Shown here piece by piece: positions 5,361-34,313 of a stretch of DNA of 37,792 nucleotides. Within the stretch, counting starts at the first letter, position 1, and each line of letters begins with the position of its first letter. The stretch spans positions 1 through 37,792 of the forward strand of contig PARV01000050.1 in assembly GCA_002712055.1 (NCBI GenBank), written 5' to 3'. The position numbers and the translations under genes were made by a program. The notes under the pieces are model-generated. The model made no database searches. It was given only the letters and a program-made list of their open reading frames with translations, and had not been told where the DNA came from. The stretch is from Gammaproteobacteria bacterium. Lineage in GTDB: Bacteria; Pseudomonadota; Gammaproteobacteria; Pseudomonadales; Pseudohongiellaceae.

Positions 5361-6575
5361 ATGAGGATAGAAATAATGAATGCTGATTTTACCTCTGAAG
5401 AATTGGCGTTCCAGAAAGAAGTAAGAACCTTTCTGGAGAGTGAGTTCCCACTTGAATTCAGGACCAAGATCGACGCGAACAGGCGTTTGAGTAAGGAAGA
5501 AATAATTTGCTGGCAGAAAATTCTTTACAAGAAAGGATGGGCAGCACCTACCTGGCCAGTTGAATTCGGAGGTACTGGGTGGAGCCAGATTCAGCGGCAT
5601 ATATTTGCGACCGAAATGGGTCTGATTGGTGCACCCGAGCCCGTGCCTTTTGGTATGAAGATGGTAGCGCCCATCATAATGGAATATGGAACTAATGAGC
5701 AGCAAAAACGTTTTCTGCCCGACATACTTGAAAGCAACGCGTGGTGGTGCCAAGGGTATTCTGAGCCAAATTCAGGCTCCGATCTTGCTTCTCTAAAAAC
5801 CACCGCGGTCAGAGAAGGGGATGAATACATCGTTAATGGAGCCAAGACTTGGAATACCTATGGTCAGTATGCTGATTGGATCTTCTGTCTAGTTAGAACT
5901 GACAACACCGTGAAGAAGCAAGAGGGGATAAGTTTCTTGCTTATTGAAATGTCATCGCCGGGTATTACTTTAAGGCCGATAGTTCTACTAGATGGTCATC
6001 CTGAAGTTAATGAAGTTTTCTTTGATGACGTGAGGGTGCCAGCAAATAATCTCATTGGGGAGGAAAATAAGGGCTGGACTTATGCCAAGCTACTACTCAC
6101 TCATGAACGAAGCAATATTTCTGGAGTCCCCCGTGGGAAAAGGCGTTTGGGGGCGCTAAAACGCATTGCAGCTGATACCGATGACGGATTCGGCGGCAGC
6201 ATGCTCGAAAATTCGAGTTTCAAGAAGAAAGTTGCAGAAGTTGAGATTGAGTTGCGAGCGTTAGAGTATTCAGAGTTACGAACACTTGCGGCTTTAAGTG
6301 TGGGCAAAGCGCCAGGTCCGGAATCCTCAATACTCAAGATTGTTGGTACTGAACTTTCGCAGGAAATAGATGAGCTCTTTGTGGAATTAGCAGCTTATAG
6401 TTGTCTTCCGTTTGTGCCAGAACAATTCGAGGATGGCTTTCAAGGTGTTCCTCTTGGCCCAGGCAATTCTGCATACGCGGCCTTGAACTATTTTAATAAT
6501 CGTAAAGCATCTATTTATGGCGGTTCTAACGAGATTCAACGCAATATTATTTGCAAGCATGTGCTTGGTCTTTAG
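5361..6575 (+). CDS. Acyl-CoA dehydrogenase
   Basis: GWAAPTWPVEFGGTGW, QGYSEPNSGSDLASLKT, KTWNTYGQYADW, IYGGSNEIQRNIICKHVLGL; start could be ATG 5376. Confidence 0.92.
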   Translation: MRIEIMNADFTSEELAFQKEVRTFLESEFPLEFRTKIDANRRLSKEEIICWQKILYKKGWAAPTWPVEFGGTGWSQIQRHIFATEMGLIGAPEPVPFGMKMVAPIIMEYGTNEQQKRFLPDILESNAWWCQGYSEPNSGSDLASLKTTAVREGDEYIVNGAKTWNTYGQYADWIFCLVRTDNTVKKQEGISFLLIEMSSPGITLRPIVLLDGHPEVNEVFFDDVRVPANNLIGEENKGWTYAKLLLTHERSNISGVPRGKRRLGALKRIAADTDDGFGGSMLENSSFKKKVAEVEIELRALEYSELRTLAALSVGKAPGPESSILKIVGTELSQEIDELFVELAAYSCLPFVPEQFEDGFQGVPLGPGNSAYAALNYFNNRKASIYGGSNEIQRNIICKHVLGL

Positions 6576-6622
6576 AAAAACTAAGCCAAAAACGCTACAC
6601 CAGCGTTAATGAGGTATAAAAG

Positions 6623-7756
6623 TTGGATTTTTCATACACACAAGAACAACAAATGCTCAAGGAAAGTGTGCAGAAGTTTGTACAAAAAAATTACGCATTC
6701 GATGCTCGTAAAAAAATCATTGCCAGTGAAGAGGGGTACAGCAAAGAAAATTGGGAGTTGTTTGCTGAACTTGGTTGGTTAACTGTTCCCTTTAAAGAGG
6801 AGGATGGTGGATTTGGCGGTTCAGCTGTGGATCTTACAGTGATGATGGACGAGTTTGGCAAGTCTAATCTGGTAGAACCCTTTACTCCTACAGTCATTCT
6901 CAGCGGAGGCTTGATTAGCACGCTGGCAGGAAATGACCAAAAATCTGGACTATTGGGTCCACTCATGGAGGGCAAGTTACAACTAGCTTGTGCATACGCT
7001 GAGGCTGACAGTCGGTTTAACCTTTCTAGTGTAAGTACAACAGCGACTGTTGAAGGAGACCAGGTAAATATAGAGGGTGGCAAGATAAATGTTCTGAACG
7101 CTTCTAATGCTGATAAGTTACTTGTAGTAGCGCGCGAATCAGGAGGTCGGACCGACCGAGAGGGTATCTCCATATTCCTTGTCGATAGCGATTCTGAGGG
7201 CCTCTTAATTCAGCCGTACACGAATGTCGACGGTAAGAAAGCGGCTCAGGTTGGCTTTGCATCGGTTAGTATTCCTCTAACCGCTAGGCTAGGGAAGGCT
7301 GGCCAAGCTTTGTCCGCTTTAGAAACTGTAGTTGACCGGGCGACAGTTGCTGTCAGCGCAGAAGCAGTTGGTGCGCTCGAGGTTTTATTACAAAAAACAG
7401 TGGAATATAGTAAGACGCGAAAGCAGTTTGGCTCACCTATTGGGACCTTCCAGGCTCTACAGCATCGCATGGCAGATATGTTTATCGAGTGCCAATTAGC
7501 ACGATCCATTGTGATCATGGCTGCTATGAAGCTCGACGGCAGTGATAGTGACGTAGAGAAAAGTAAGGCCGTGTCTGCTGCAAAGAGCCGTGTAGGTAAG
7601 GCCATAGAGAAAGTTGGACAAGAGGCCATACAGATTCACGGCGGTATCGGTATGACAGAAGAACTCGACGTGGGGCATCTGTTCAAGCGTGTGACAGCTA
7701 TCGACATCCAGTTTGGTAACTCCGACTATCACACCGCAAAATTTGCGTCTCTCTAG
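6623..7756 (+). CDS. Acyl-CoA dehydrogenase (second member of the tandem pair)
   Basis: MDFSYTQEQQMLKESVQKFV, YSKTRKQFGSPIGTFQALQHRMADM, QIHGGIGMTEELDVGHLFKR; TTG start. Confidence 0.9.
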   Translation: MDFSYTQEQQMLKESVQKFVQKNYAFDARKKIIASEEGYSKENWELFAELGWLTVPFKEEDGGFGGSAVDLTVMMDEFGKSNLVEPFTPTVILSGGLISTLAGNDQKSGLLGPLMEGKLQLACAYAEADSRFNLSSVSTTATVEGDQVNIEGGKINVLNASNADKLLVVARESGGRTDREGISIFLVDSDSEGLLIQPYTNVDGKKAAQVGFASVSIPLTARLGKAGQALSALETVVDRATVAVSAEAVGALEVLLQKTVEYSKTRKQFGSPIGTFQALQHRMADMFIECQLARSIVIMAAMKLDGSDSDVEKSKAVSAAKSRVGKAIEKVGQEAIQIHGGIGMTEELDVGHLFKRVTAIDIQFGNSDYHTAKFASL

Positions 7757-15130: not shown

Positions 15131-16279
15131 TTAGCTAGCCCCTTTTATCATGTTGCGGGCAATTATGATCTGCTGGATCTGGGAGGTACCCTCATAGAGC
15201 CGGAATAGGCGAACATCGCGATAGAAGCGTTCCACAGCATACTCAGACATATAGCCCGCTCCGCCATGAATTTGCACAGCCCGGTCGGCTACCCTTCCCA
15301 CCATTTCAGTTGCGAATAATTTGCAGGCCGATGACTCGGTGCTGACGTTTTCACCGTTATCGCGCTGGCGAGCAGTCTCGAGAGTCATACATTTTGCGGC
15401 GTAGGTTTCGGTTTGAGAATCTGCCAGCATGGCTTGTATAAGTTGCTGTTCTGCAATGGGTTGGCCGAACTGTTTGCGTTGCAACGCGTAATCCAGTGCA
15501 TCAGTAATCAATCGTTCGGCGACCCCAACGCTAACCCCCGAAATGTGCAAGCGGCCACGATCTAGAACTTTCATCGCGGTAACGAATCCCTCGCCCTCTT
15601 CTCCGATCAGGTTTTCTGCAGGTACAGGACAATCCTCGAAGGTTACATCGCAGGTCTTCGAGCCGGCCTGGCCCATTTTTTTATCTACTGGTCCAAGCGT
15701 TATACCGGGGGTACCACGTTCGACGATGAAGGAAGAGATACCATGAGCACCCTGAATGTCAGGGTTAGTCCGAGCCATAACATTGAAAGTGTCAGCGATA
15801 ATGGCGTTTGTAATGTATCTCTTCGTCCCATTCAAAATATAGTGATCGCCTTCGCGTCGAGCAGTGGTTTTGAGTGAAGCGGCATCAGAGCCAGCTTCTG
15901 GCTCGGTTAGGCAGAAACAACTAATCCATTCCCCGCTCGAATAACGAGGCAGATATTTCTGTTTCTGCTCTTCAGAGCCATTGAACACTATCGCCGCCGA
16001 TCCAATTCCATTATTAGTACCCATTACCGAGCGAAAAGCTGGAGAAGTTCGTCCCAGAGCGATAGCTATTAGTATTTCTTCCTCCATGGTAAGTCCGAGT
16101 CCGCCATACTCCTCTGGAATGGTTAGTCCGAACAAGCCCAGAGCTTTCATTTCTTTCAGGATGTCTTCCGGCAGTTCGGCTTCTTCTTCGAGCTTGTTTT
16201 CATTAGGTACTAGGCGCTCGCGTACAAAGCGTTCGACTAATCCTATAAGCTGACTAATGGTTTCTTGATCTCGTATCAT
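15131..16279 (-). CDS. Acyl-CoA dehydrogenase
   Basis: FCLTEPEAGSDAASLKTTA, KRYITNA, YALQRKQFGQPIAEQQLIQ, QIHGGAGYMSEY, YEGTSQIQQIIIARNM. Confidence 0.95.
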   Translation of the reverse strand: MIRDQETISQLIGLVERFVRERLVPNENKLEEEAELPEDILKEMKALGLFGLTIPEEYGGLGLTMEEEILIAIALGRTSPAFRSVMGTNNGIGSAAIVFNGSEEQKQKYLPRYSSGEWISCFCLTEPEAGSDAASLKTTARREGDHYILNGTKRYITNAIIADTFNVMARTNPDIQGAHGISSFIVERGTPGITLGPVDKKMGQAGSKTCDVTFEDCPVPAENLIGEEGEGFVTAMKVLDRGRLHISGVSVGVAERLITDALDYALQRKQFGQPIAEQQLIQAMLADSQTETYAAKCMTLETARQRDNGENVSTESSACKLFATEMVGRVADRAVQIHGGAGYMSEYAVERFYRDVRLFRLYEGTSQIQQIIIARNMIKGAS

Positions 16280-16556
16280 TATCGCCCCCTGAAATCGAGC
16301 GGCTAACCTAGCATAACCACTCTCTTTAATCGACTCTACGGTCCGCTATCCTGCTGCTTACAGCGAAATTACTATGCTAGAATGACCGCCTTTGTGTGAT
16401 CCCTTTCGAGGTTCTCCAGCAGGAGTTGAAACCAACAGACGGGTGGGAAATAGTTCAGTCTTGACATTGAAATTATCCTGCCTCTAAGGGCAGCACAAAT
16501 TCTGGAAAGAGTCGATTAGTATTCTATGTAGATTACCAAATTTGAAAGGAAAAATT

Positions 16557-18668
16557 ATGTCGGAAGTAGTCAGCTACCAACTTAAAGACAACATCGGTGT
16601 TATTAGCGTGAACAATCCGCCGGTAAATGCTCTGGCACAGGCAGTTAGAGAAGGAATTTTGAATGCGATCAATACAGCAAATGAAGACGCTTCCGAGGCT
16701 ATTTTGCTCGTTTGTGAAGGGCGTACATTTGTTGCCGGAGCTGACATTACTGAGTTTGGTAAGCCACCTAAAGATCCTGGGTTTCCCCTGGTACTTGACG
16801 CCATAGAGAATGCTAGCAAGCCAGTAATTGCAGCCATTCATGGGACTGCCCTGGGAGGTGGCTTTGAACTTGCGCTCGCCTGCCATTACCGCTGTGCCTT
16901 ACCCACCGCGAAAGTGGGACTCCCCGAAGTAAAGCTAGGTTTGCTACCTGGAGCAGGGGGTACACAAAGGGTTCCTAGACTTACTGGTGTTAAGGCTGCG
17001 TTAGACATGATTACCAGCGGTAATCCGATTTCGGCCAGTAAAGCTCTGAAAATGACGCTCGTAGATAAAATTATCGAAGGCGATAATCTGGAATTAGGTG
17101 GTATTCAATATGCAAAAGAATTAATAGGGTCAAGTGCTCCACTTAAACGTATTAGCGATATTAAGATCGATCCGGCTACTGTCGAGCCTGGTTTTTTTGA
17201 TAATGCCCGAAAACATTTAGCGAGAAGAGCGCGAGGCCAGATTGCACAGGATAGAATAGTTTCTTGTATCGAGGCAGCAGTCGAATTGCCAATGGGCGAA
17301 GGATTGGAACGGGAAAGGGAATTGTTTCGTGAGCTAGTTGCATCCCCAGAATCCGCTGCGATGCGGCACATATTTTTTTCAGAACGGCAGGCGGCCAAAA
17401 TCCAGGATCTTCCAAAAGGCGCACCGGTGCGAGATATCAAAAAGGTCGCCATCATCGGTGGTGGCACCATGGGCGGTGGTATTGCTATGTGTTTTGCGAA
17501 CGTGGGTATACCAGTAGTTATGCTGGAAATCAACGATGACGCGCTACAGCGCGGAATGGGTATTATTCGTAAGAACTACAACATTACCGTGCAGAAAGGG
17601 AAATTGTCTGAAGATAAAATGGAAGGACGCATCGATACAATTGCCGGGACTACAGACTACCTCGATATCGCTGATGCCGATTTGGTAATTGAGGCCGTCT
17701 TTGAGAATCTCGAACTAAAAAAAGAGGTTTTTGGCAAACTAGATGCAGTCTGTAAGCCGGGGGCAATTCTGGCCACAAATACTTCCTATCAGGATGTAGA
17801 TGCTATCGCTGAAGCTACCCAGCGGCCGCAGGATGTGCTGGGTATGCATTTTTTCAGCCCAGCTAATGTAATGAGGTTGTTGGAAGTGGTGCGTGGGGAA
17901 AAAACTGCCGACGATGTGCTTTCAACCGCGATGAAGATTGGTAAGAAAATAGGTAAGGTATGTGCTCTATCTCGGGTTTGTTATGGTTTTATAGGTAATC
18001 GCATGCTGGGAGGTTACGGTCGGGAAGCTCAGATGCTGTTGCTCGATGGCTGCACGCCAGAACAGGTAGACTCTGTCCTGGAAGGCTTTGGGATGGCCAT
18101 GGGTCCGCTGGCTATGGGAGACCTAGCCGGGCTTGATGTGGGGTACAAAGCTCGAGAGGGGCGCACCGATTTACCAGACGATCCCAGACTCTACCGTATG
18201 GGCACCTTACTTGTCGAAATGGGTCGGCATGGGCAGAAAACTGGTTCAGGATTTTATAAGTACGATCCAGAAACTCGTCGCCGTGAATCTGATTCGGAAG
18301 TGGAAACATTAATAAAGGAAGAAGCTGCTACGCTTGGTGTAGAACAGCGAAAAATTACCGACGATGAGATTCTAGCACGCTGTTTTTACCCTCTTATTAA
18401 TGAAGGAGCATTGATTTTGGAAGAAGGTATTGCTCAGCGTGCGAGTGATATCGATGTGGTTTATGTGTTCGGTTATGCCTTTCCAGTCGCTAAGGGAGGA
18501 CCCATGCATTATGCCGACCAGGTTGGCCTGGAAAATGTGTATAACAAAATTCTTGAATTTCGTGAGCGCTATGGAGAACAGTACTGGAAACCTGCACCTC
18601 TCTTGCAGAGGTTAGCCGAAGAAGGGAAAACATTCGCCGATTGGGATAAAGAAAAAGAGGTAGGCTAA
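16557..18668 (+). CDS. Multifunctional enoyl-CoA hydratase / 3-hydroxyacyl-CoA dehydrogenase
   Basis: Hydratase motif AIHGTALGGGFELALACHYR, LPEVKLGLLPGAGGTQR; HAD motif VAIIGGGTMGGGIAM, LGMHFFSPANVM. Start set at ATG 16557 (GGAAAAATT upstream) rather than the track's 16542. Confidence 0.93.
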   Translation: MSEVVSYQLKDNIGVISVNNPPVNALAQAVREGILNAINTANEDASEAILLVCEGRTFVAGADITEFGKPPKDPGFPLVLDAIENASKPVIAAIHGTALGGGFELALACHYRCALPTAKVGLPEVKLGLLPGAGGTQRVPRLTGVKAALDMITSGNPISASKALKMTLVDKIIEGDNLELGGIQYAKELIGSSAPLKRISDIKIDPATVEPGFFDNARKHLARRARGQIAQDRIVSCIEAAVELPMGEGLERERELFRELVASPESAAMRHIFFSERQAAKIQDLPKGAPVRDIKKVAIIGGGTMGGGIAMCFANVGIPVVMLEINDDALQRGMGIIRKNYNITVQKGKLSEDKMEGRIDTIAGTTDYLDIADADLVIEAVFENLELKKEVFGKLDAVCKPGAILATNTSYQDVDAIAEATQRPQDVLGMHFFSPANVMRLLEVVRGEKTADDVLSTAMKIGKKIGKVCALSRVCYGFIGNRMLGGYGREAQMLLLDGCTPEQVDSVLEGFGMAMGPLAMGDLAGLDVGYKAREGRTDLPDDPRLYRMGTLLVEMGRHGQKTGSGFYKYDPETRRRESDSEVETLIKEEAATLGVEQRKITDDEILARCFYPLINEGALILEEGIAQRASDIDVVYVFGYAFPVAKGGPMHYADQVGLENVYNKILEFRERYGEQYWKPAPLLQRLAEEGKTFADWDKEKEVG

Positions 18669-24479: not shown

Positions 24480-25175
24480 TTATACCTCCAGCCATTCAGC
24501 CCTAACCTCATCCGCTTGCATTAAGCTTGCAGGGGTACCTTCATATACCATTTGGCCATGACCCATGACATATAACCGATGGGAGATATTTAGCGCAATG
24601 TTAAGTTTTTGTTCCACCAGCAGAATTGCAACGCCACGATTGGCGATCTCTTGCAACAAGTTAGCAACCTGTTCGACGATTTTAGGCGCTAGTCCTTCAG
24701 TCGGTTCATCGATCATTATCATGTCGGGGTCGCCCATCAATGTGCGACACATGCATAGCATCTGTTGCTCACCACCACTCAACACTCCACCATCTATTTC
24801 TGCACGGTCTGCTAGATTTGGAAACATGCTAAAGATTTCCTCAACGCTCCAACGTCCGTTCGCTTTACTCGATTTCATTCCCAGTTGGAGGTTTTGACGG
24901 GCGGTGAGGGTAGGAAAAATATCCCTATTCTCCGGTACATAGCCAAGACCGAGGTTAGCGATTTCAAAACTTTTCTTGCCGCCAATTTCCTGATTTTTAA
25001 ATCTTATTGAACCCTGAGGAAGTACCTCTCCCATAATAGCTTTTACAGTAGTGGAGCGACCCACGCCATTTCTGCCAAGCAGACTGACTATTTCCCCTTC
25101 CTGTACATTGAAGGTAATACCCTGAAGGATATGACTCTTGCCGTAGTATGCGTGTAGGTCAGAAACTTCAAGCAT
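24480..25175 (-). CDS. livF: Branched-chain amino acid-type ABC transporter ATP-binding protein (LivF-like)
   Basis: LLGRNGVGRSTTVKAIMG, LSGGEQQMLCMCRTLM signature, MIMIDEPTEGLAP. Confidence 0.9.
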   Translation of the reverse strand: MLEVSDLHAYYGKSHILQGITFNVQEGEIVSLLGRNGVGRSTTVKAIMGEVLPQGSIRFKNQEIGGKKSFEIANLGLGYVPENRDIFPTLTARQNLQLGMKSSKANGRWSVEEIFSMFPNLADRAEIDGGVLSGGEQQMLCMCRTLMGDPDMIMIDEPTEGLAPKIVEQVANLLQEIANRGVAILLVEQKLNIALNISHRLYVMGHGQMVYEGTPASLMQADEVRAEWLEV

Positions 25176-25920
25176 TTATAGTCACCTCTCCGAGGTAGGC
25201 TTCCTGCACTTTCGAATCGGCCCTTATATTTTCGGGCATGTCGCTGGCAATGATTTCCCCATATACAAGCACAGAAATTTTATCTGCAACATCGAATACG
25301 ATATTCATGTCATGTTCTACCATTATGAGTGTTTTGCCAGCAGTGACACGCCTTATCAACTCAACTGTGTTTTGCGCTTCGCTGCGACTCATTCCAGCAA
25401 CCGGTTCGTCTAGCATAATGATCTCGGCATTGCTGGCAATGGCTATGCCAAGCTCTAAGGCACGTTGTTGGGCGTAGGCTAACTCACCTGCTGGATAATG
25501 CATCTTATCTTCCAGGCCGATCTGTTCAAGCACTTGAATTGCTTTTTCATTTAATTCACTTTGTTTGCCCATAAGATGCCAAAATGAATAATTGTATCCA
25601 TTTGGCCACAGAAGGGCGCAGCGGATATTTTCAAAAACATTCATGCGGGCAAAGATATTCGTGACCTGGAAGCTTCTGGCCAAACCTAGGCGGCTAATTT
25701 CAAAGGGGGGCTTATTTTGTATTTCTTGACCTTTGAACTCAATAGTGCCAGCTGTCACATTATAAAGACCGCTTATGAGATGAAAGAGTGTGGATTTCCC
25801 CGCGCCATTGGGACCGATAATAGCGTGTCGTTCACCTTGTTCTATATCCAGGTTCACACCTCGGACAATTTTAGTTTCTCCGAAGTTCTTACGAACAGCT
25901 TTTAAAGAAAGCACGGTCAT
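25168..25920 (-). CDS. livG: Branched-chain amino acid-type ABC transporter ATP-binding protein (LivG-like)
   Basis: GPNGAGKSTLFHLISG, ELAYAQQRALELGIA, IIMLDEPVAGMS; start at 25920 gives ATGA overlap with livM. Confidence 0.9.
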   Translation of the reverse strand: MTVLSLKAVRKNFGETKIVRGVNLDIEQGERHAIIGPNGAGKSTLFHLISGLYNVTAGTIEFKGQEIQNKPPFEISRLGLARSFQVTNIFARMNVFENIRCALLWPNGYNYSFWHLMGKQSELNEKAIQVLEQIGLEDKMHYPAGELAYAQQRALELGIAIASNAEIIMLDEPVAGMSRSEAQNTVELIRRVTAGKTLIMVEHDMNIVFDVADKISVLVYGEIIASDMPENIRADSKVQEAYLGEVTINA

Positions 25921-27155
25921 TTTCCAAAGCTCTCTTTTTCCGGGATTGTATTTGCCCTCTCCCATGCGTCCTTTAGCTGGGGTAGTAAAAGGCGAACGGC
26001 ATAAAATGAAGAACAAGCTATAAATAGAGTGATTAGCCAGGTTGCAAGGCCAGATGGGTTCAATTCCATCCACAAGTAGTGAAATACCTCTTCTTCGGTA
26101 TGGCTCATTTCAATCATGGCGACGCAAGCCATTAGAAATAGGGAAGACGGGATACTAGTAATCAGGTAAGGCATTACTAATGAAGAGAGTTTGCCCCGAA
26201 CCCAAGCTATCTGGTGCATCATGATAAACCCGGCGAATCCCCTTGGTAGAAATAACACTGTAAGCACGAACATAATACCTAGGTATAGCATCCACAGTTC
26301 ACTGTAATTGCTGAGTAGAGAATTCATTAGAGTAAGGATGACGGCGCCAATTATCGGACCAATGAAGTAACCTAGACCTCCGATATAAGCCATCAGGAGG
26401 ACGCGGCCCGAGGTTACAGCATTGAGATTTTCCTCGGTAATGAACTCGTAGTTGAGAGCGAACAGACCACCAGCAATACCAGCGAAAAATCCGGATGCAC
26501 AAAAAGAGATGTAACGAATTTTTCTAGCACTGTAGCCGATGAATTGCGCCCGTTCGGGATTGTCTCGAACAGCATTAGCCATGCGTCCAGCAGGAGTCTG
26601 GGTAAACAAATACATAAACAGGGTTGCAATAAATACCCAAGCAGCGGCCAGATAGTAAATTTCTACATCCTGAAAGAATTCAATACCGAAAAACGAAGGG
26701 CCAAAGGTTCTATCTCCGCTAACACCCGCCTCTCCACCAAAAAAGCTATCAAATATCAGGGATGATGCAGCTATTAGCTCTCCAATACCGAGAGAGATCA
26801 TGGCAAACACAGTACCAGCCTTATGGGTTGAGAAACTGCCGATGAAAAGTGCAGCTAGTAATCCGCTAAAGGCACCCACAAGAGGAATGTAGATGATGGA
26901 AAAATAAATGGTTTCGAATTCGATCATATTTAGAGCGTGTACTGCCAGAAATCCACCTAATCCGAAATAGACAGCATGGCCAAATGACAGCATGCCTCCC
27001 TGCCCTAGGAGCATGTTGTAACTAAGCGCAAAAACAATGGCGATAGCTATTTGATTAAATATCGAAATCGCCAACACCGAATCGAAAAACTGTGGCAGTG
27101 CAAGAAGCACTACCAAATAAACTATCCAGATTGATGATTTCCTAATGAAAGCCAT
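25917..27155 (-). CDS. livM: Branched-chain amino acid-type ABC transporter permease (LivM-like)
   Basis: Multi-TM; SYNMLLGQGGMLSFGHAVYFGLGGFLA; GGLGYFIGPIIGA. Confidence 0.9.
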   Translation of the reverse strand: MAFIRKSSIWIVYLVVLLALPQFFDSVLAISIFNQIAIAIVFALSYNMLLGQGGMLSFGHAVYFGLGGFLAVHALNMIEFETIYFSIIYIPLVGAFSGLLAALFIGSFSTHKAGTVFAMISLGIGELIAASSLIFDSFFGGEAGVSGDRTFGPSFFGIEFFQDVEIYYLAAAWVFIATLFMYLFTQTPAGRMANAVRDNPERAQFIGYSARKIRYISFCASGFFAGIAGGLFALNYEFITEENLNAVTSGRVLLMAYIGGLGYFIGPIIGAVILTLMNSLLSNYSELWMLYLGIMFVLTVLFLPRGFAGFIMMHQIAWVRGKLSSLVMPYLITSIPSSLFLMACVAMIEMSHTEEEVFHYLWMELNPSGLATWLITLFIACSSFYAVRLLLPQLKDAWERANTIPEKESFGK

Positions 27156-27187
27156 TTTCGTGCTCTAGTGGTTTTTGGTCCTATTAG

Positions 27188-28138
27188 CTATTGCTCTCGT
27201 TTGCCCATTAGCCCTGTTGGTCTAAAAATTAAAACAAGGACTAACAGCAAGAAGGGTAGTATCGGTGCTACCTGGGGTAAAGTCAGAGTCCAGAGATCAG
27301 TCAGGGGATGATTGCGGTCGAATTCTAGTCCTAGCACATTCAATAGATCTTGGACTCCAACATCTGAGGCGATTGCATAGGACTGCAACAGCCCGATCAG
27401 CAGAGAGGCTATAAATGCTCCGACCAAAGAACCGAGCCCGCCAATAACGACTATGACGAAGACAATACTCCCAAGTACGACAGCCATCCCCGGGAAGGTG
27501 GTTAATATCGGTCCGGCAATAACTCCTGCTATACCAGCCAGTGCGGTCCCTACTCCAAAAACGCCCATAAAAATAAATGGTACATTGTGCCCAAGATTAG
27601 CGACTGTATGAGGATGAGTGATAGCGGCTTGGATAATGATACCTACCCGACTGCGTGTAAGGAGGTAATACAGTCCGATAAAAATTGAGATTGAGATTCC
27701 GATCATGAAGCCCCGGTAAGCAGGAAATTCCTGACCAAACAATGTGAAGAGTGGAAAGTCGAGAAGGTCTGGGGATTGGTAGTTCTTGGTGTCAGGCCCC
27801 CAAAAGAACTGCACGGCTTCTTCGATCAGGAATGCCATACCGAAAGTAAACACCAACTCAGCCACGTGGCCAGATTGGTGCACCCGCCGTAATCCGTATC
27901 GTTCCACCAGAGCGCCTAGGACTCCAACGATCAGTGGTGCAAAAATTAATCCAGCCCAGAATCCTAGGTAGAGGCTGATTGAATAGGCGAAGTAAGCGCC
28001 GAGCATATAGAAGCTTGCATGCGCAAAGTTTAAAACACCCATCATGCTAAAGATCAGCGTTAGACCGCTAGCCAACATAAATAATAGAAGTCCAGTTACT
28101 AGGCCATTAAGGGTGGCAAAGATGAAGACTTCCAGCAT
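27188..28138 (-). CDS. livH: Branched-chain amino acid-type ABC transporter permease (LivH-like)
   Basis: LASGLTLIFSMMGVLNFAHASFYMLGAYFAY; VIGGLGSLVGAFIASLLIG. Confidence 0.9.
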   Translation of the reverse strand: MLEVFIFATLNGLVTGLLLFMLASGLTLIFSMMGVLNFAHASFYMLGAYFAYSISLYLGFWAGLIFAPLIVGVLGALVERYGLRRVHQSGHVAELVFTFGMAFLIEEAVQFFWGPDTKNYQSPDLLDFPLFTLFGQEFPAYRGFMIGISISIFIGLYYLLTRSRVGIIIQAAITHPHTVANLGHNVPFIFMGVFGVGTALAGIAGVIAGPILTTFPGMAVVLGSIVFVIVVIGGLGSLVGAFIASLLIGLLQSYAIASDVGVQDLLNVLGLEFDRNHPLTDLWTLTLPQVAPILPFLLLVLVLIFRPTGLMGKREQ

Positions 28139-28179
28139 TATTTAGTTTTCGCCTGCTCTGTTACTTCTTGAAGACTGGT

Positions 28180-29445
28180 TTAACGACTTGGGCGTCTCAT
28201 GCGACAGGATGTAGGTACAATGGTTTCTTCTGTTGGTACGTGGTATTCGCTGAACAATCCAAACCCCGAATTGTCTGCGTCAAATTCAATACCTTCATCC
28301 GTATGCACTGAGATGTGCAGTGACTGGAAAATCTGATGATCTTCCCCGCGCATCCAGATTTCTTCTCCACTTAAGGTGGTGAACCGCATATCTTCTAGCG
28401 CTAAAGCAATGTCGTAAGGATCAGTACTCTGTGTTTCTTCCATGGCTAATACGATCATGGAAAGCGCATTAGTGATGCGTGGTTGTGTTACATCGTTGTT
28501 CGGATTGGCTGCCTTGAAAGCGCGGATAAATTCTTTGCGCTGTTCAGTAGGTATAGGGTTGGATGTTTCATTGTGAATAAGACGAATCATATTTTTACCA
28601 TCGGCTCCCAGTGTTGCAGTAATGCCATCGTAGGCGGCATAGAAAGTAAAAATTGGTATGTCTAAGCCATTATCTATAATAGAGCGAGCCAGAGACACCA
28701 TATCCGCACCCCAGTTACCAGTGATCACTGCGTCGGCTCCAGAAGAGACTATCTTAGTAACATAGGGTGTAAAATCTTTTACCTGCCCAATGGGATGTAA
28801 CTCGTTACCGACGATTTCAATATCCGGACGTTTTTCTTTAAGTAGTGCTATTGAAGTATCTGATAATATCTGTCCAAATGAGTAATTTTGACCAATGATA
28901 TACACGCTTTTGATATCTGGATTACTAGCAATATAGTCAGTCAATACATTTAGTTTCATTACTTCGTGCGCGTCGAATCGAAAATGCCAAAAGCTGCAGT
29001 TTTCTTCAGTAAGAATTGGATCAACCGCGGAATAGTTTATTTGCAAAATTTCCTGCCCAGGATTTCGGCGATTGTGACGAGTGACAGCCGAGTTCAGCGC
29101 ATTGGCGACCGCTGAACCGTTGCCCTGAAAAATGATACGTATTCCTTCGCTCACAGCACGGCGGAACTGAATTTGTGTTTCAGTAGGACTGTTTTGGTTA
29201 TCAAGTGGCACGATTTCAATCGTGCGGCCATCCAAAATTCCACCATGAGAGTTAAATAGATAATCTGCCGCAAATTCGAGTTGTTTTAAGCCGCTGGTTC
29301 CTACTGAAGCAAAAGCTCCAGAGAGAGGATCCATGAAAGCGATACGGATGGGCTCTTGGGTACGAGCGGTACTGCTTAGGCTAATTATACTAATTAGCAG
29401 TAGAGTTCTTAATTTCAGAGCATTTTGAATGAATCTAGTAGGCAT
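28180..29445 (-). CDS. ABC transporter substrate-binding protein (periplasmic binding protein, LivK-type)
   Basis: Signal peptide, PIRIAFMDPLSGAFASVGTSGLKQLEFAADYLF; adjacent to permease/ATPase genes. Start probably ATG 29445. Confidence 0.88.
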   Translation of the reverse strand: MPTRFIQNALKLRTLLLISIISLSSTARTQEPIRIAFMDPLSGAFASVGTSGLKQLEFAADYLFNSHGGILDGRTIEIVPLDNQNSPTETQIQFRRAVSEGIRIIFQGNGSAVANALNSAVTRHNRRNPGQEILQINYSAVDPILTEENCSFWHFRFDAHEVMKLNVLTDYIASNPDIKSVYIIGQNYSFGQILSDTSIALLKEKRPDIEIVGNELHPIGQVKDFTPYVTKIVSSGADAVITGNWGADMVSLARSIIDNGLDIPIFTFYAAYDGITATLGADGKNMIRLIHNETSNPIPTEQRKEFIRAFKAANPNNDVTQPRITNALSMIVLAMEETQSTDPYDIALALEDMRFTTLSGEEIWMRGEDHQIFQSLHISVHTDEGIEFDADNSGFGLFSEYHVPTEETIVPTSCRMRRPSR

Positions 29446-29656
29446 ATTCTGTCTTCTTTTTATGAACAAAATTCTGCAGTTAGTCCCTGTGTTCGGGCAA
29501 CCTCGACATTAACCTAGACTGCTAGCTGAAGCAAGAAGTCCCGAATTAAGCCAGGAGTTAGCTGACTATGATGATTTTATTAACTTTTTATAAATTACAA
29601 TTCTGTTTAGTGAAAGTTGAGATTCAGGTAGGATTGGTATTCAGCTCAAATTTCTT

Positions 29657-31124: not shown

Positions 31125-32309
31125 TTAGTAGACTTCAAATAACCCGGCCGCTCCCATGCCTCCCCCCACACACATAGTGCAGATAACATATTTGGCACCA
31201 CGACGTTTACCTTCGATAAGCGCATGACCAACCAGACGAGCTCCACTCATGCCGTACGGGTGTCCGATGGAGATAGCGCCGCCATTAACATTGAGTAGTT
31301 CATTGGGAATGTTCAGTTTGTCTCGACAGTAAACCACCTGAACGGCAAATGCTTCGTTTAATTCCCAAAGACCAATATCGTCCATAGAAAGATTGAAGCG
31401 CTCCAGCAACTTAGGGACCGCGTAGATTGGTCCTATCCCCATTTCGTCAGGGTCCAGGCCAGCCACCGATATGCCACGATAGGCCCCAAGTGGTTCCACA
31501 CCTTTCTGTTCTGCAAGTTTGCTATCCATCAAGACCGAAGCAGACGCGCCGTCGGATAGTTGGCTGGCGTTACCAGCAGTAATCACGCCATCATCAAAGA
31601 CTGTTCTTAGGCCCGATAGCCCTTCCAGAGTTGTTGTGGGGCGGTTTCCTTCATCTTTTTCCAAGGTAATATCGTGGGTACTTTGTTGCTTTGTTTCCTT
31701 ATCCATGAATATCATTTTTGTAGCTAGAGGAGCAATTTCGTCATTAAACTTTCCAGCTTCTTGTGCTGCAGCTGTGCGTTGCTGGCTCTGAAGCGCGAAC
31801 TCGTCCTGCAGTTCCCGAGATATGTTGTAGCGATCGGCTACAGTTTCTGCTGTTTCCAGCATTGACATATAAGCATGTTCTGACTTGGCGACGACATTAG
31901 GGTCATGAGCTCGATAACCGTTGCGGTGTTCATTCTGTACTAGGCTTATCGATTCTAGCCCCCCACCTACCACGATAGGTATGTTGTCACACACAATCTG
32001 CTTGGCAGCGGTAGCAATAGCCATCATGCCCGATGAGCATTGACGATCTATACTCATACCTGAAACGGAATTTGGAAGACCGGCGGCTATGGTTGAGGTA
32101 CGGCCAATATTGCTTCCAGACGATCCTTGCTGCATAGCACAGCCCATGATTACATCATCCACCTCGCCCGGCTCGATTCCGGCTCTCTTCACGGCTTGCG
32201 CAATTACATGGCCACCTAGTGTGGGAGCATCCGTGTCGTTAAAGGCTCCGCGATACGCTTTGCCTATTGGTGTTCGGGCGGTGGATACGATTACTGCTTC
32301 TCTAGTCAT
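31125..32309 (-). CDS. Acetyl-CoA C-acyltransferase (thiolase)
   Basis: [73 protein letters not shown]. Confidence 0.95.
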
Positions 32310-32339: not shown

Positions 32340-32858
32340 CTATTTCTTAACAATAAGTGCGGTTATTTTCTCGATTGCTTCATGCGCTAATTCTACCATC
32401 TCAACGTCTGTGCGATCTTGGATGGGATGAGGGATAAAAGCTCTAGCGACGTTTATGCCGAGAGATTTACCCTGAGCATTAGCTGCCTCTTCAAACTCAC
32501 AAGAAGCTACGAATCCTGAAGGGGTGCCGCGGCTTTCCAAGTCCATGATGTCATGCAAACTGCACGAGGTACATGAACCTCAGTCGGCTAACCCTTCAAT
32601 AACAGCATCGCACTCTGAGCTGATTTTCTGACTAAGTTGTCTCGGCGCGATGCGGGCAAAGGTCGGTTTCATGTAACGATTTACCCTAGCTCCTTTGCCA
32701 AGCAAAAGGGTTTCAATCTCATCAAGAAACTCCTTCCCCCTGGGTTTGGAAATGTCTAGAAGTCCGATAGTTGCTCCTTCCAAGCTTTGTAGACGGGGAA
32801 CTAATTGTCGCTCGGTGGGTGCTAGCTCCGCAGTTGGGTCCAGCAGGAATTCACTCAT
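32340..32858 (-). CDS. UGSC-type selenoprotein, 172 aa with in-frame UGA (Sec93) at 32580-32582; the track splits it into 32580-32858 and 32340-32558
   Basis: Both ORFs share one frame (519 nt = 173 codons). Minus-strand DNA across the junction: GGG/..TTA GCC GAC TGA GGT TCA TGT ACC TCG TGC AGT TTG CAT GAC = L A D U G S C T S C S L H D. GAGGAG RBS before ATG 32858; final stop TAA. Confidence 0.88.
32551..32567 (-). promoter_or_regulatory. Bacterial SECIS-like stem-loop
   Basis: Minus strand TCGTGCA-GTT-TGCATGA: 7-bp stem (one G-U pair), 3-nt loop with G first, apical loop 19 nt after the UGA. Confidence 0.6.
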
Positions 32859-32870
32859 CTTGATCTCCTC

Positions 32871-34313
32871 TCAGTTAATTTGTTGCGAAACCAGTTGACT
32901 GCCTTTGTCTCCAGAGGCTAGCCAGCCGCTTATTATGGCTGAAAACATACCCGCTTTTCCGCCAGCACCGACTATGTGTAATCCGTCGTCTCTGAACTTG
33001 TTGAGTAGCATGTCTTTGAATTTTTCAGGCATGCCTTCAGCGATACCGCCCTTACCGCGAATGATATCAGCCCCAGGTGTTATTAGTTCGTCATATAGCG
33101 CTTTTTTCAAATCGGCTTTGGTCCAGTTATCCTGCCTCAGGACTCGACGGTGCTCTGGGCTAATTACGATCATAGCATCAGCCATTCCGAATGATCGTGT
33201 ATTAGCTACACTACGCAGGCTATTACCCAAGTTTTTGACTAACGATTCCGGTTGACGTGATAGCTGATCTACGAAGGGTTGTACTCCGCTGCCAGCAAAT
33301 AGATTAATCACTGAATCTTCCCTATTGTAACCACGATCCATGGCTAGCGACGGCCACTCTGTATCTGATTCATCTTCGGAGAAACAAAACGTATATTTGC
33401 CTGGAGTTCCCAGAGTGGCTCGATCAATCCCGCCTGGCAATCCCCCACCTACATTGCGGATGATAAGTTGCAGTGCCCGTCCGATTGTTGCGTTTGCCCG
33501 GTTACCTTGTCCAAGAGCGTTAACTCCTGAATTCATTCCGATTTGTTGGGTAATAGGCCCATTAACGATCATTACGGGAGCAGAGAAATACGTCGTACAC
33601 AGCAGGCCATGCATGCAAAATTCATCTTGTAGAGCTGCCTTTAAGGCGGCGATAACTACTTGCAGATGATCTGGCTTGCATCCTGCCATGACAGCATTTA
33701 TGGCGATTTTCTCTACTGTGCAGGGCTTATTATCCGGTGGCACAGAACCAATTATTTCATCGGCAGATAGGTCTGTGCCGGACAGCATGCGCGTTACTCT
33801 CAGCAGTGTAGGTGGAACTACGGGCAGGCCGTCGCTCCAGCCACGTTCAAAACACGCTTCCATTATGTCTTCAGATTCTGCTAGTTCGATCTTCCTAGCC
33901 CGCAGACGATCTGTATCGAAACGGAGCGTCAGAATTTCATTCATCCCAGGATCTTGAGTCTTTGAGCCACAACCCGGTTTGGAATCCACGAGATTGGCAC
34001 CGAGATTTTCGATGCCGGTCAATTCTTGCCACTCACTTTTGTTCCAACCGAATATGCGCGCTTGGTTATCCAAACCATTATCTGAACGAATGAGTGTAGG
34101 AACTATCTCTATGTTCTGTTTGTAGGAGAATTCGAGGGAGGAGTCATCTATTTTAGTAATGACATTTTCCGGAAACGAAGGATCATCTTGGACGTAAATG
34201 GCCAGAGAATCATTAAAGGTTTCTGAAAGTTGCTTGATGACAGGCTCAATTAACGCGCAGGTCGGGCAGTCTTTTTTCACGACAAGCGAATAGTAATGTT
34301 CTTGTTGTTTCAA
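32871..34313 (-). CDS. Two-domain protein: N-terminal thioredoxin-like (CPTC) + conserved C-terminal domain of unknown function
   Basis: YYSLVVKKDCPTCALIEPVIKQL...VPTLIRSDNG; C-terminal RGWSDGLPVVPPTLLRV...AGCKPDHLQVVIAAL. Ends 12 nt before the UGSC gene. Confidence 0.75.
   Translation of the reverse strand: MKQQEHYYSLVVKKDCPTCALIEPVIKQLSETFNDSLAIYVQDDPSFPENVITKIDDSSLEFSYKQNIEIVPTLIRSDNGLDNQARIFGWNKSEWQELTGIENLGANLVDSKPGCGSKTQDPGMNEILTLRFDTDRLRARKIELAESEDIMEACFERGWSDGLPVVPPTLLRVTRMLSGTDLSADEIIGSVPPDNKPCTVEKIAINAVMAGCKPDHLQVVIAALKAALQDEFCMHGLLCTTYFSAPVMIVNGPITQQIGMNSGVNALGQGNRANATIGRALQLIIRNVGGGLPGGIDRATLGTPGKYTFCFSEDESDTEWPSLAMDRGYNREDSVINLFAGSGVQPFVDQLSRQPESLVKNLGNSLRSVANTRSFGMADAMIVISPEHRRVLRQDNWTKADLKKALYDELITPGADIIRGKGGIAEGMPEKFKDMLLNKFRDDGLHIVGAGGKAGMFSAIISGWLASGDKGSQLVSQQIN

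Follow-up and report, generated by a model that had tools for sequence, protein, structure and literature searches.

A probable bacterial selenocysteine insertion element, conserved and covarying, in a UGSC-family gene from a marine bacterium

The UGSC-family gene and its in-frame UGA codon

We analyzed a stretch of 37,792 nucleotides from a marine gammaproteobacterium (the window, meaning the whole of that stretch), in which a gene of the UGSC family lies on the minus strand, interrupted by an in-frame UGA and preceded by a co-oriented gene. The features discussed below are as follows.

32340..32858, minus strand: UGSC-family selenoprotein gene, 172 residues with the UGA read through, containing DUGSCTSCSLHD; TAG stop at 32342-32340
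32580..32582, minus strand: in-frame UGA (Sec93), TGA at the aligned position in 78/78 close homologs
32551..32567, minus strand: core hairpin of the putative bSECIS, UCGUGCA-GUU-UGCAUGA, with a 7-bp stem and a G-first loop
32558..32560, minus strand: apical loop GUU, which becomes NGUNN when the optional closing A-U pair is open
32540..32579, minus strand: predicted outer (lower) stem, nucleotides 1-8 after the UGA (32579-32572) with nucleotides 33-40 (32547-32540)
32871..34313, minus strand: probable upstream partner gene, 480 aa, with a thioredoxin-like N-terminus (KKDCPTC, CPTC) and an uncharacterized GWSDGLP domain

With the UGA taken as a residue, the protein scored 134.1 bits against NF041046 (cut-off 125) and 133.9 bits against PF24696 (cut-off 25). 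Both alignments exceed the curated cut-offs and span nearly the full length of the model, and the family match is complete only with the UGA read through. Across the family, the codon at the Sec site is TGA in 179 of 185 matches and TGC or TGT in 6/185. UGSC-containing proteins are among the commonest selenoprotein families in Global Ocean Sampling data, with 255 Sec forms versus 21 Cys forms (PMC2398784). The window gene is a member of this same family (PMC2398784; NF041046; PF24696), carries its UGA at the U of UGSC and, apart from the predicted fold, does not differ from it in kind. Since this family is already known as a selenoprotein family, the finding adds nothing new in kind.

A hairpin downstream of the UGA

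The UGA (32582-32580) is separated from the hairpin (32567-32551) by the 12-nt spacer GGUUCAUGUACC on the minus strand. The 7-bp stem, which includes one G-U pair, closes a 3-nt loop with G in first place at a distance of 19 nt from the UGA, and the hairpin falls on codons 98-103 (TCG TGC AGT TTG CAT GAC). A first-pass annotation, made from the sequence alone, had described UCGUGCA-GUU-UGCAUGA 12 nt after the UGA, with these same stem, loop and distance values; we found it at the same position on the minus strand and confirmed its geometry. The RNAfold check that the annotation proposed bore it out as well: the predicted fold contains the core hairpin together with an outer stem of 8-9 predicted pairs, in which the nucleotides right after the UGA pair with 32547-32540. 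The predicted energy is -16.1 kcal/mol for the 45 nt after the UGA and -6.4 kcal/mol for the 17-nt core alone.

By itself, the window sequence is modest evidence for a SECIS. The RNAfold energy of 66 nt of the window sequence was just 1.1 sd below that of dinucleotide shuffles. We also performed a codon randomization, in which the amino acids were fixed and codons were sampled from the usage of the window; 1.6% of the randomized sequences had a local stem as strong (p ~0.016) and 0.8% had a 45-nt fold of equally low energy (p ~0.008). As a control, we searched downstream of 198 ordinary TGA stops, taken from ORFs of at least 200 aa in the collected DNA, and found a hairpin with bSECIS geometry (≤ -5 kcal/mol) at 17% of them and one with both the geometry and the strength of the window's at 10%. 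Geometry alone is therefore no proof, given that roughly a tenth of ordinary TGA stops match the window in strength. A search of the window against Rfam yielded nothing above cut-off, with just weak chance-level matches near the hairpin. The doubt that a single sequence leaves was removed by comparative evidence.

Conservation and covariation across homologs

A scan of our genome collection yielded 80 homologous loci, and 78 sequences, the window's among them, were aligned. Family searches added distant homologs, down to ~20% protein identity with the window protein. All 78 aligned close homologs, which come from independent assemblies, have TGA at the UGA position. Across these 78 sequences, synonymous codon entropy (normalized by degeneracy) was 0.00, 0.10, 0.00, 0.11, 0.24 and 0.00 at codons 98-103, versus 0.87 (sd 0.12) at 79 conserved codons elsewhere in the gene. 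Among seven-codon windows, the lowest entropy falls on the hairpin, and diversity drops nowhere else.

The first-pass annotation had named the lack of a hairpin at this distance in UGA homologs as grounds for rejecting the element, and this check did not refute it: 137 of the 163 distinct UGA homologs have a hairpin there (≤ -5 kcal/mol). Counts here describe the set and give no probabilities, since the homologs are related and not independent. Most of the UGA homologs with a weaker hairpin have the identical stem minus one pair; weak hairpins were seen in L192, L177, L178 and five UGSCTTGTV sequences. The distance from UGA to loop is 17-19 nt in 156 of the 163. The compensatory changes that the annotation proposed to look for in UGSC homologs are present. 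Nucleotides 18 and 24, both at wobble positions, form a standard pair (C-G, G-C or U-A) in 163/163 distinct UGA sequences. On a tree from which the hairpin columns were left out, this pair underwent a minimum of 4 changes. A second wobble pair, 15-27, underwent at least 23 changes on that tree and is standard in 170 of 178 rows. The loop reads [A/U]GU in 162 of the 178 UGA rows, and the remaining loops contain G.

To measure covariation, we used 53 distinct sequences that align in the same register, with 500 shuffles and with slid controls. Pairing of the core cells was 91.6%, and 12 cells showed a double change; no shuffle (0/500) reached either figure, and core pairing was far above that of the slid controls. 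As RNA, the bSECIS stem thus has evolutionary support. The RNAalifold consensus contains only five inner pairs around a 5-nt loop; the seven pairs drawn in the first-pass annotation include two optional ones, U-A at the base of the stem and A-U next to the loop. In two divergent clades with other peptides the element is rebuilt with a different stem, CCCGC-CGUGUU-GCGGG in the UGSCTPAVLR clade and GUCGGGC-AGUUC-GCUUGAC in the UGSCSSGSS clade, each with G in the loop and with 17-18 nt between UGA and loop. Compared with the codon null, UGA homologs had a mean of -7.6 kcal/mol versus -1.8 kcal/mol expected (p < 0.05 in 95 of 140). Among the five Cys homologs the hairpin was not found, and none of them (0/5) differed from codon randomization in local energy.

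Selenocysteine machinery in the genomes

The MAG that contains the window (2.07 Mb, 77% complete) encodes SelA (579 bits), SelB (397 bits) and SelD (290 bits), all over cut-off. We did not find tRNA-Sec in this 77%-complete MAG, nor around its selA, selB and selD, for which incompleteness is the simplest reason. Those sub-threshold tRNA-Sec matches in the MAG that we inspected proved to be ordinary tRNAs (Leu, Cys, Lys, Ser and others). Each of the seven same-genus genomes that we examined has a tRNA-Sec over cut-off, and ARAGORN predicted tRNA-SeC with anticodon tca in all four same-genus genomes on which it was run.

Genomes with a UGA copy (n = 48) encode SelA in 47/48 cases and SelB in 47/48, with one 77%-complete MAG as the exception, while both proteins are missing from four of the five Cys-only genomes. 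One of these four, G277, has a possibly broken UGSC copy, which the search recovered as two pieces. G863 (L179) has full-strength SelA and SelB, yet its UGSC protein is of the Cys type and is without the hairpin.

The UGSC gene is also found physically close to this machinery. The order UGSC, selA, selB, tRNA-Sec occurs within ~4 kb in G435, G558, G577 and G595, which belong to the window's family, and UGSC is at most ~10 kb from selA/selB in G311, G555, G593, G693, G723 and G750.

The hairpin as a candidate SECIS element

In standard bacterial Sec insertion, SelB carrying Sec-tRNA-Sec is brought to the UGA by a hairpin. The hairpin in the window is very probably such a selenocysteine insertion element of its UGSC-family gene (probability roughly 0.95). 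Our analysis shows the gene family, the hairpin with its conservation and covariation as RNA, its association with the UGA, and genes for SelA, SelB and SelD; we infer that SelB binds the hairpin and that the UGA of the window is in fact read through. The C-terminal winged-helix domain of SelB would bind the mRNA hairpin 12 nt past the UGA, with its GU-containing loop, and SelB would deliver Sec-tRNA-Sec (with GTP) to the ribosomal A site at that codon. The UGA would then be read as Sec93 and not as a stop, giving the 172-residue protein.

The UGA could in principle be a genuine stop, or a Cys codon misread in sequencing, with a hairpin downstream by coincidence, and the 10% of ordinary TGA stops followed by an equally strong hairpin of the same geometry speak for this. 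The TGA, however, recurs in 78/78 close homologs from independent assemblies, the protein family is conserved on both sides of it, and synonymous conservation and covariation are specific to the hairpin; the homologs already refute a stop or an error, the chance of which we regard as negligible. The conserved codons might instead serve another RNA-level role independent of Sec insertion, such as pausing, attenuation, mRNA stability or a regulator site, as synonymous constraint, though strong, does not identify what reads the element. Against this, the distance of the hairpin from the UGA is fixed, the five Cys homologs are without it, and genomes with UGA copies also have SelA and SelB, which makes such a role very unlikely.

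Other structures in the same region were also considered. The first-pass annotation had drawn a stem that overlaps the UGA itself, GAGGU-UCAUGU-ACCUC, and had it compete with the hairpin or stack under it. The window sequence allows this stem, and near relatives allow part of it, but of the 53 distinct sequences 44 break its pair 4-15 and 38 its pair 6-13; the stem is 64.5% paired, scores no better than slid controls and is missing from the predicted minimum-energy fold. Being neither conserved nor covarying, it is extremely improbable as the functional structure, and the annotation's competitor did not hold. A refinement within the SECIS interpretation, and not an exclusive rival to it, is that the 17-nt core is not enough and that, as in E. 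coli fdhF, the full two-stem hairpin of ~42 nt from the UGA on is needed. The 8-9 lower pairs predicted in the window, the 45-nt energy given above and the partial, weak retention of the lower stem in close relatives speak for it. Family-wide, however, pairing of the lower stem is 57.8% and does not exceed that of slid controls, the consensus fold retains only the five core pairs, and a search for covariation of the lower stem across the family found none. We therefore do not claim the lower stem as essential; that it is needed seems unlikely, while its formation in the window is plausible locally.

Comparison with known SECIS elements

The SECIS of E. coli fdhF and fdnG is a downstream hairpin with GU in its loop that is read by SelB, and in fdhF SelB requires a bulged U. 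The window hairpin resembles these elements in its position downstream and in the GU of its loop. It differs from that of fdhF in that the conserved UGSC core is free of bulges, though the internal loop predicted in the window could offer one.

Published constraints for bSECIS elements are a loop of 3-9 nt, an upper stem of 4-16 bp, G in loop position 1 or 2, 16-37 nt from UGA to loop and an MFE of at most -7.5 kcal/mol (PMC13188914, Fig. 2 legend). The window hairpin falls within all of these, with its 3-nt loop with G first, 7-bp stem, 19-nt spacing and, using the 45-nt fold, -16.1 kcal/mol. Agreement with these constraints, together with conservation and covariation across UGA homologs, supports the bSECIS interpretation of the first-pass annotation. 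As in the consensus model (bSECISearch; PMC13188914), the element is a stem-loop within the coding region after the UGA, with a small G-first loop at 19 nt and 7 bp; it departs from the model in its loop, which is as small as the model allows (3 nt; 5 nt with the A-U pair open), and in lacking a lower stem supported by covariation. The window gene and its hairpin are very probably a new example of an ordinary bSECIS within a UGSC-family selenoprotein.

More tentatively, and with the odds somewhat against it, UGSC genes may use a minimal bSECIS without a bulge, of ~17 nt with 5-7 pairs and an NGUNN loop, which re-evolved in divergent clades with different sequences while its distance from the UGA stayed fixed. 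If this is true, SelB in these lineages would need only loop identity and spacing, with no bulge or lower stem. The natural loop and stem variants are a ready panel for measuring the minimal recognition code of SelB.

Protein fold and genomic neighborhood

AlphaFold2 models the UGSC protein (pLDDT 95.5) as a domain in which alpha and beta elements strictly alternate, flavodoxin- or lumazine-synthase-like, with Sec93 between strand 3 and the following helix. The best PDB structure matches to the model reached a TM of only about 0.4-0.5, and when the PDB was searched by sequence, neither the UGSC profile nor the partner gene had a match above chance level. A Trx-like fold was suggested earlier for UGSC proteins (PMC2398784), whereas the fold predicted here is a flavodoxin-like alpha/beta one.

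The Trx-like/GWSDGLP gene lies directly upstream of UGSC and co-oriented with it in 76 of the 80 homologous loci, and it is therefore probably a functional partner of UGSC. This pairing may be the same as the UGSC/Unknown_1 fusion of PMC2398784. Four genomes from another proteobacterial class (G807, G894, G814 and G712) have 5-8 UGSC family matches each; several of them lie in open frames 500-660 residues long, which points to fusions.

Around the UGSC gene are many genes of fatty-acid beta-oxidation (5361-7756, 15131-18668 and 31125-32309), comprising acyl-CoA dehydrogenases, an enoyl-CoA hydratase/3HCDH fusion and a thiolase. The window also contains an ABC transporter of the branched-chain amino-acid type (24480-29469).
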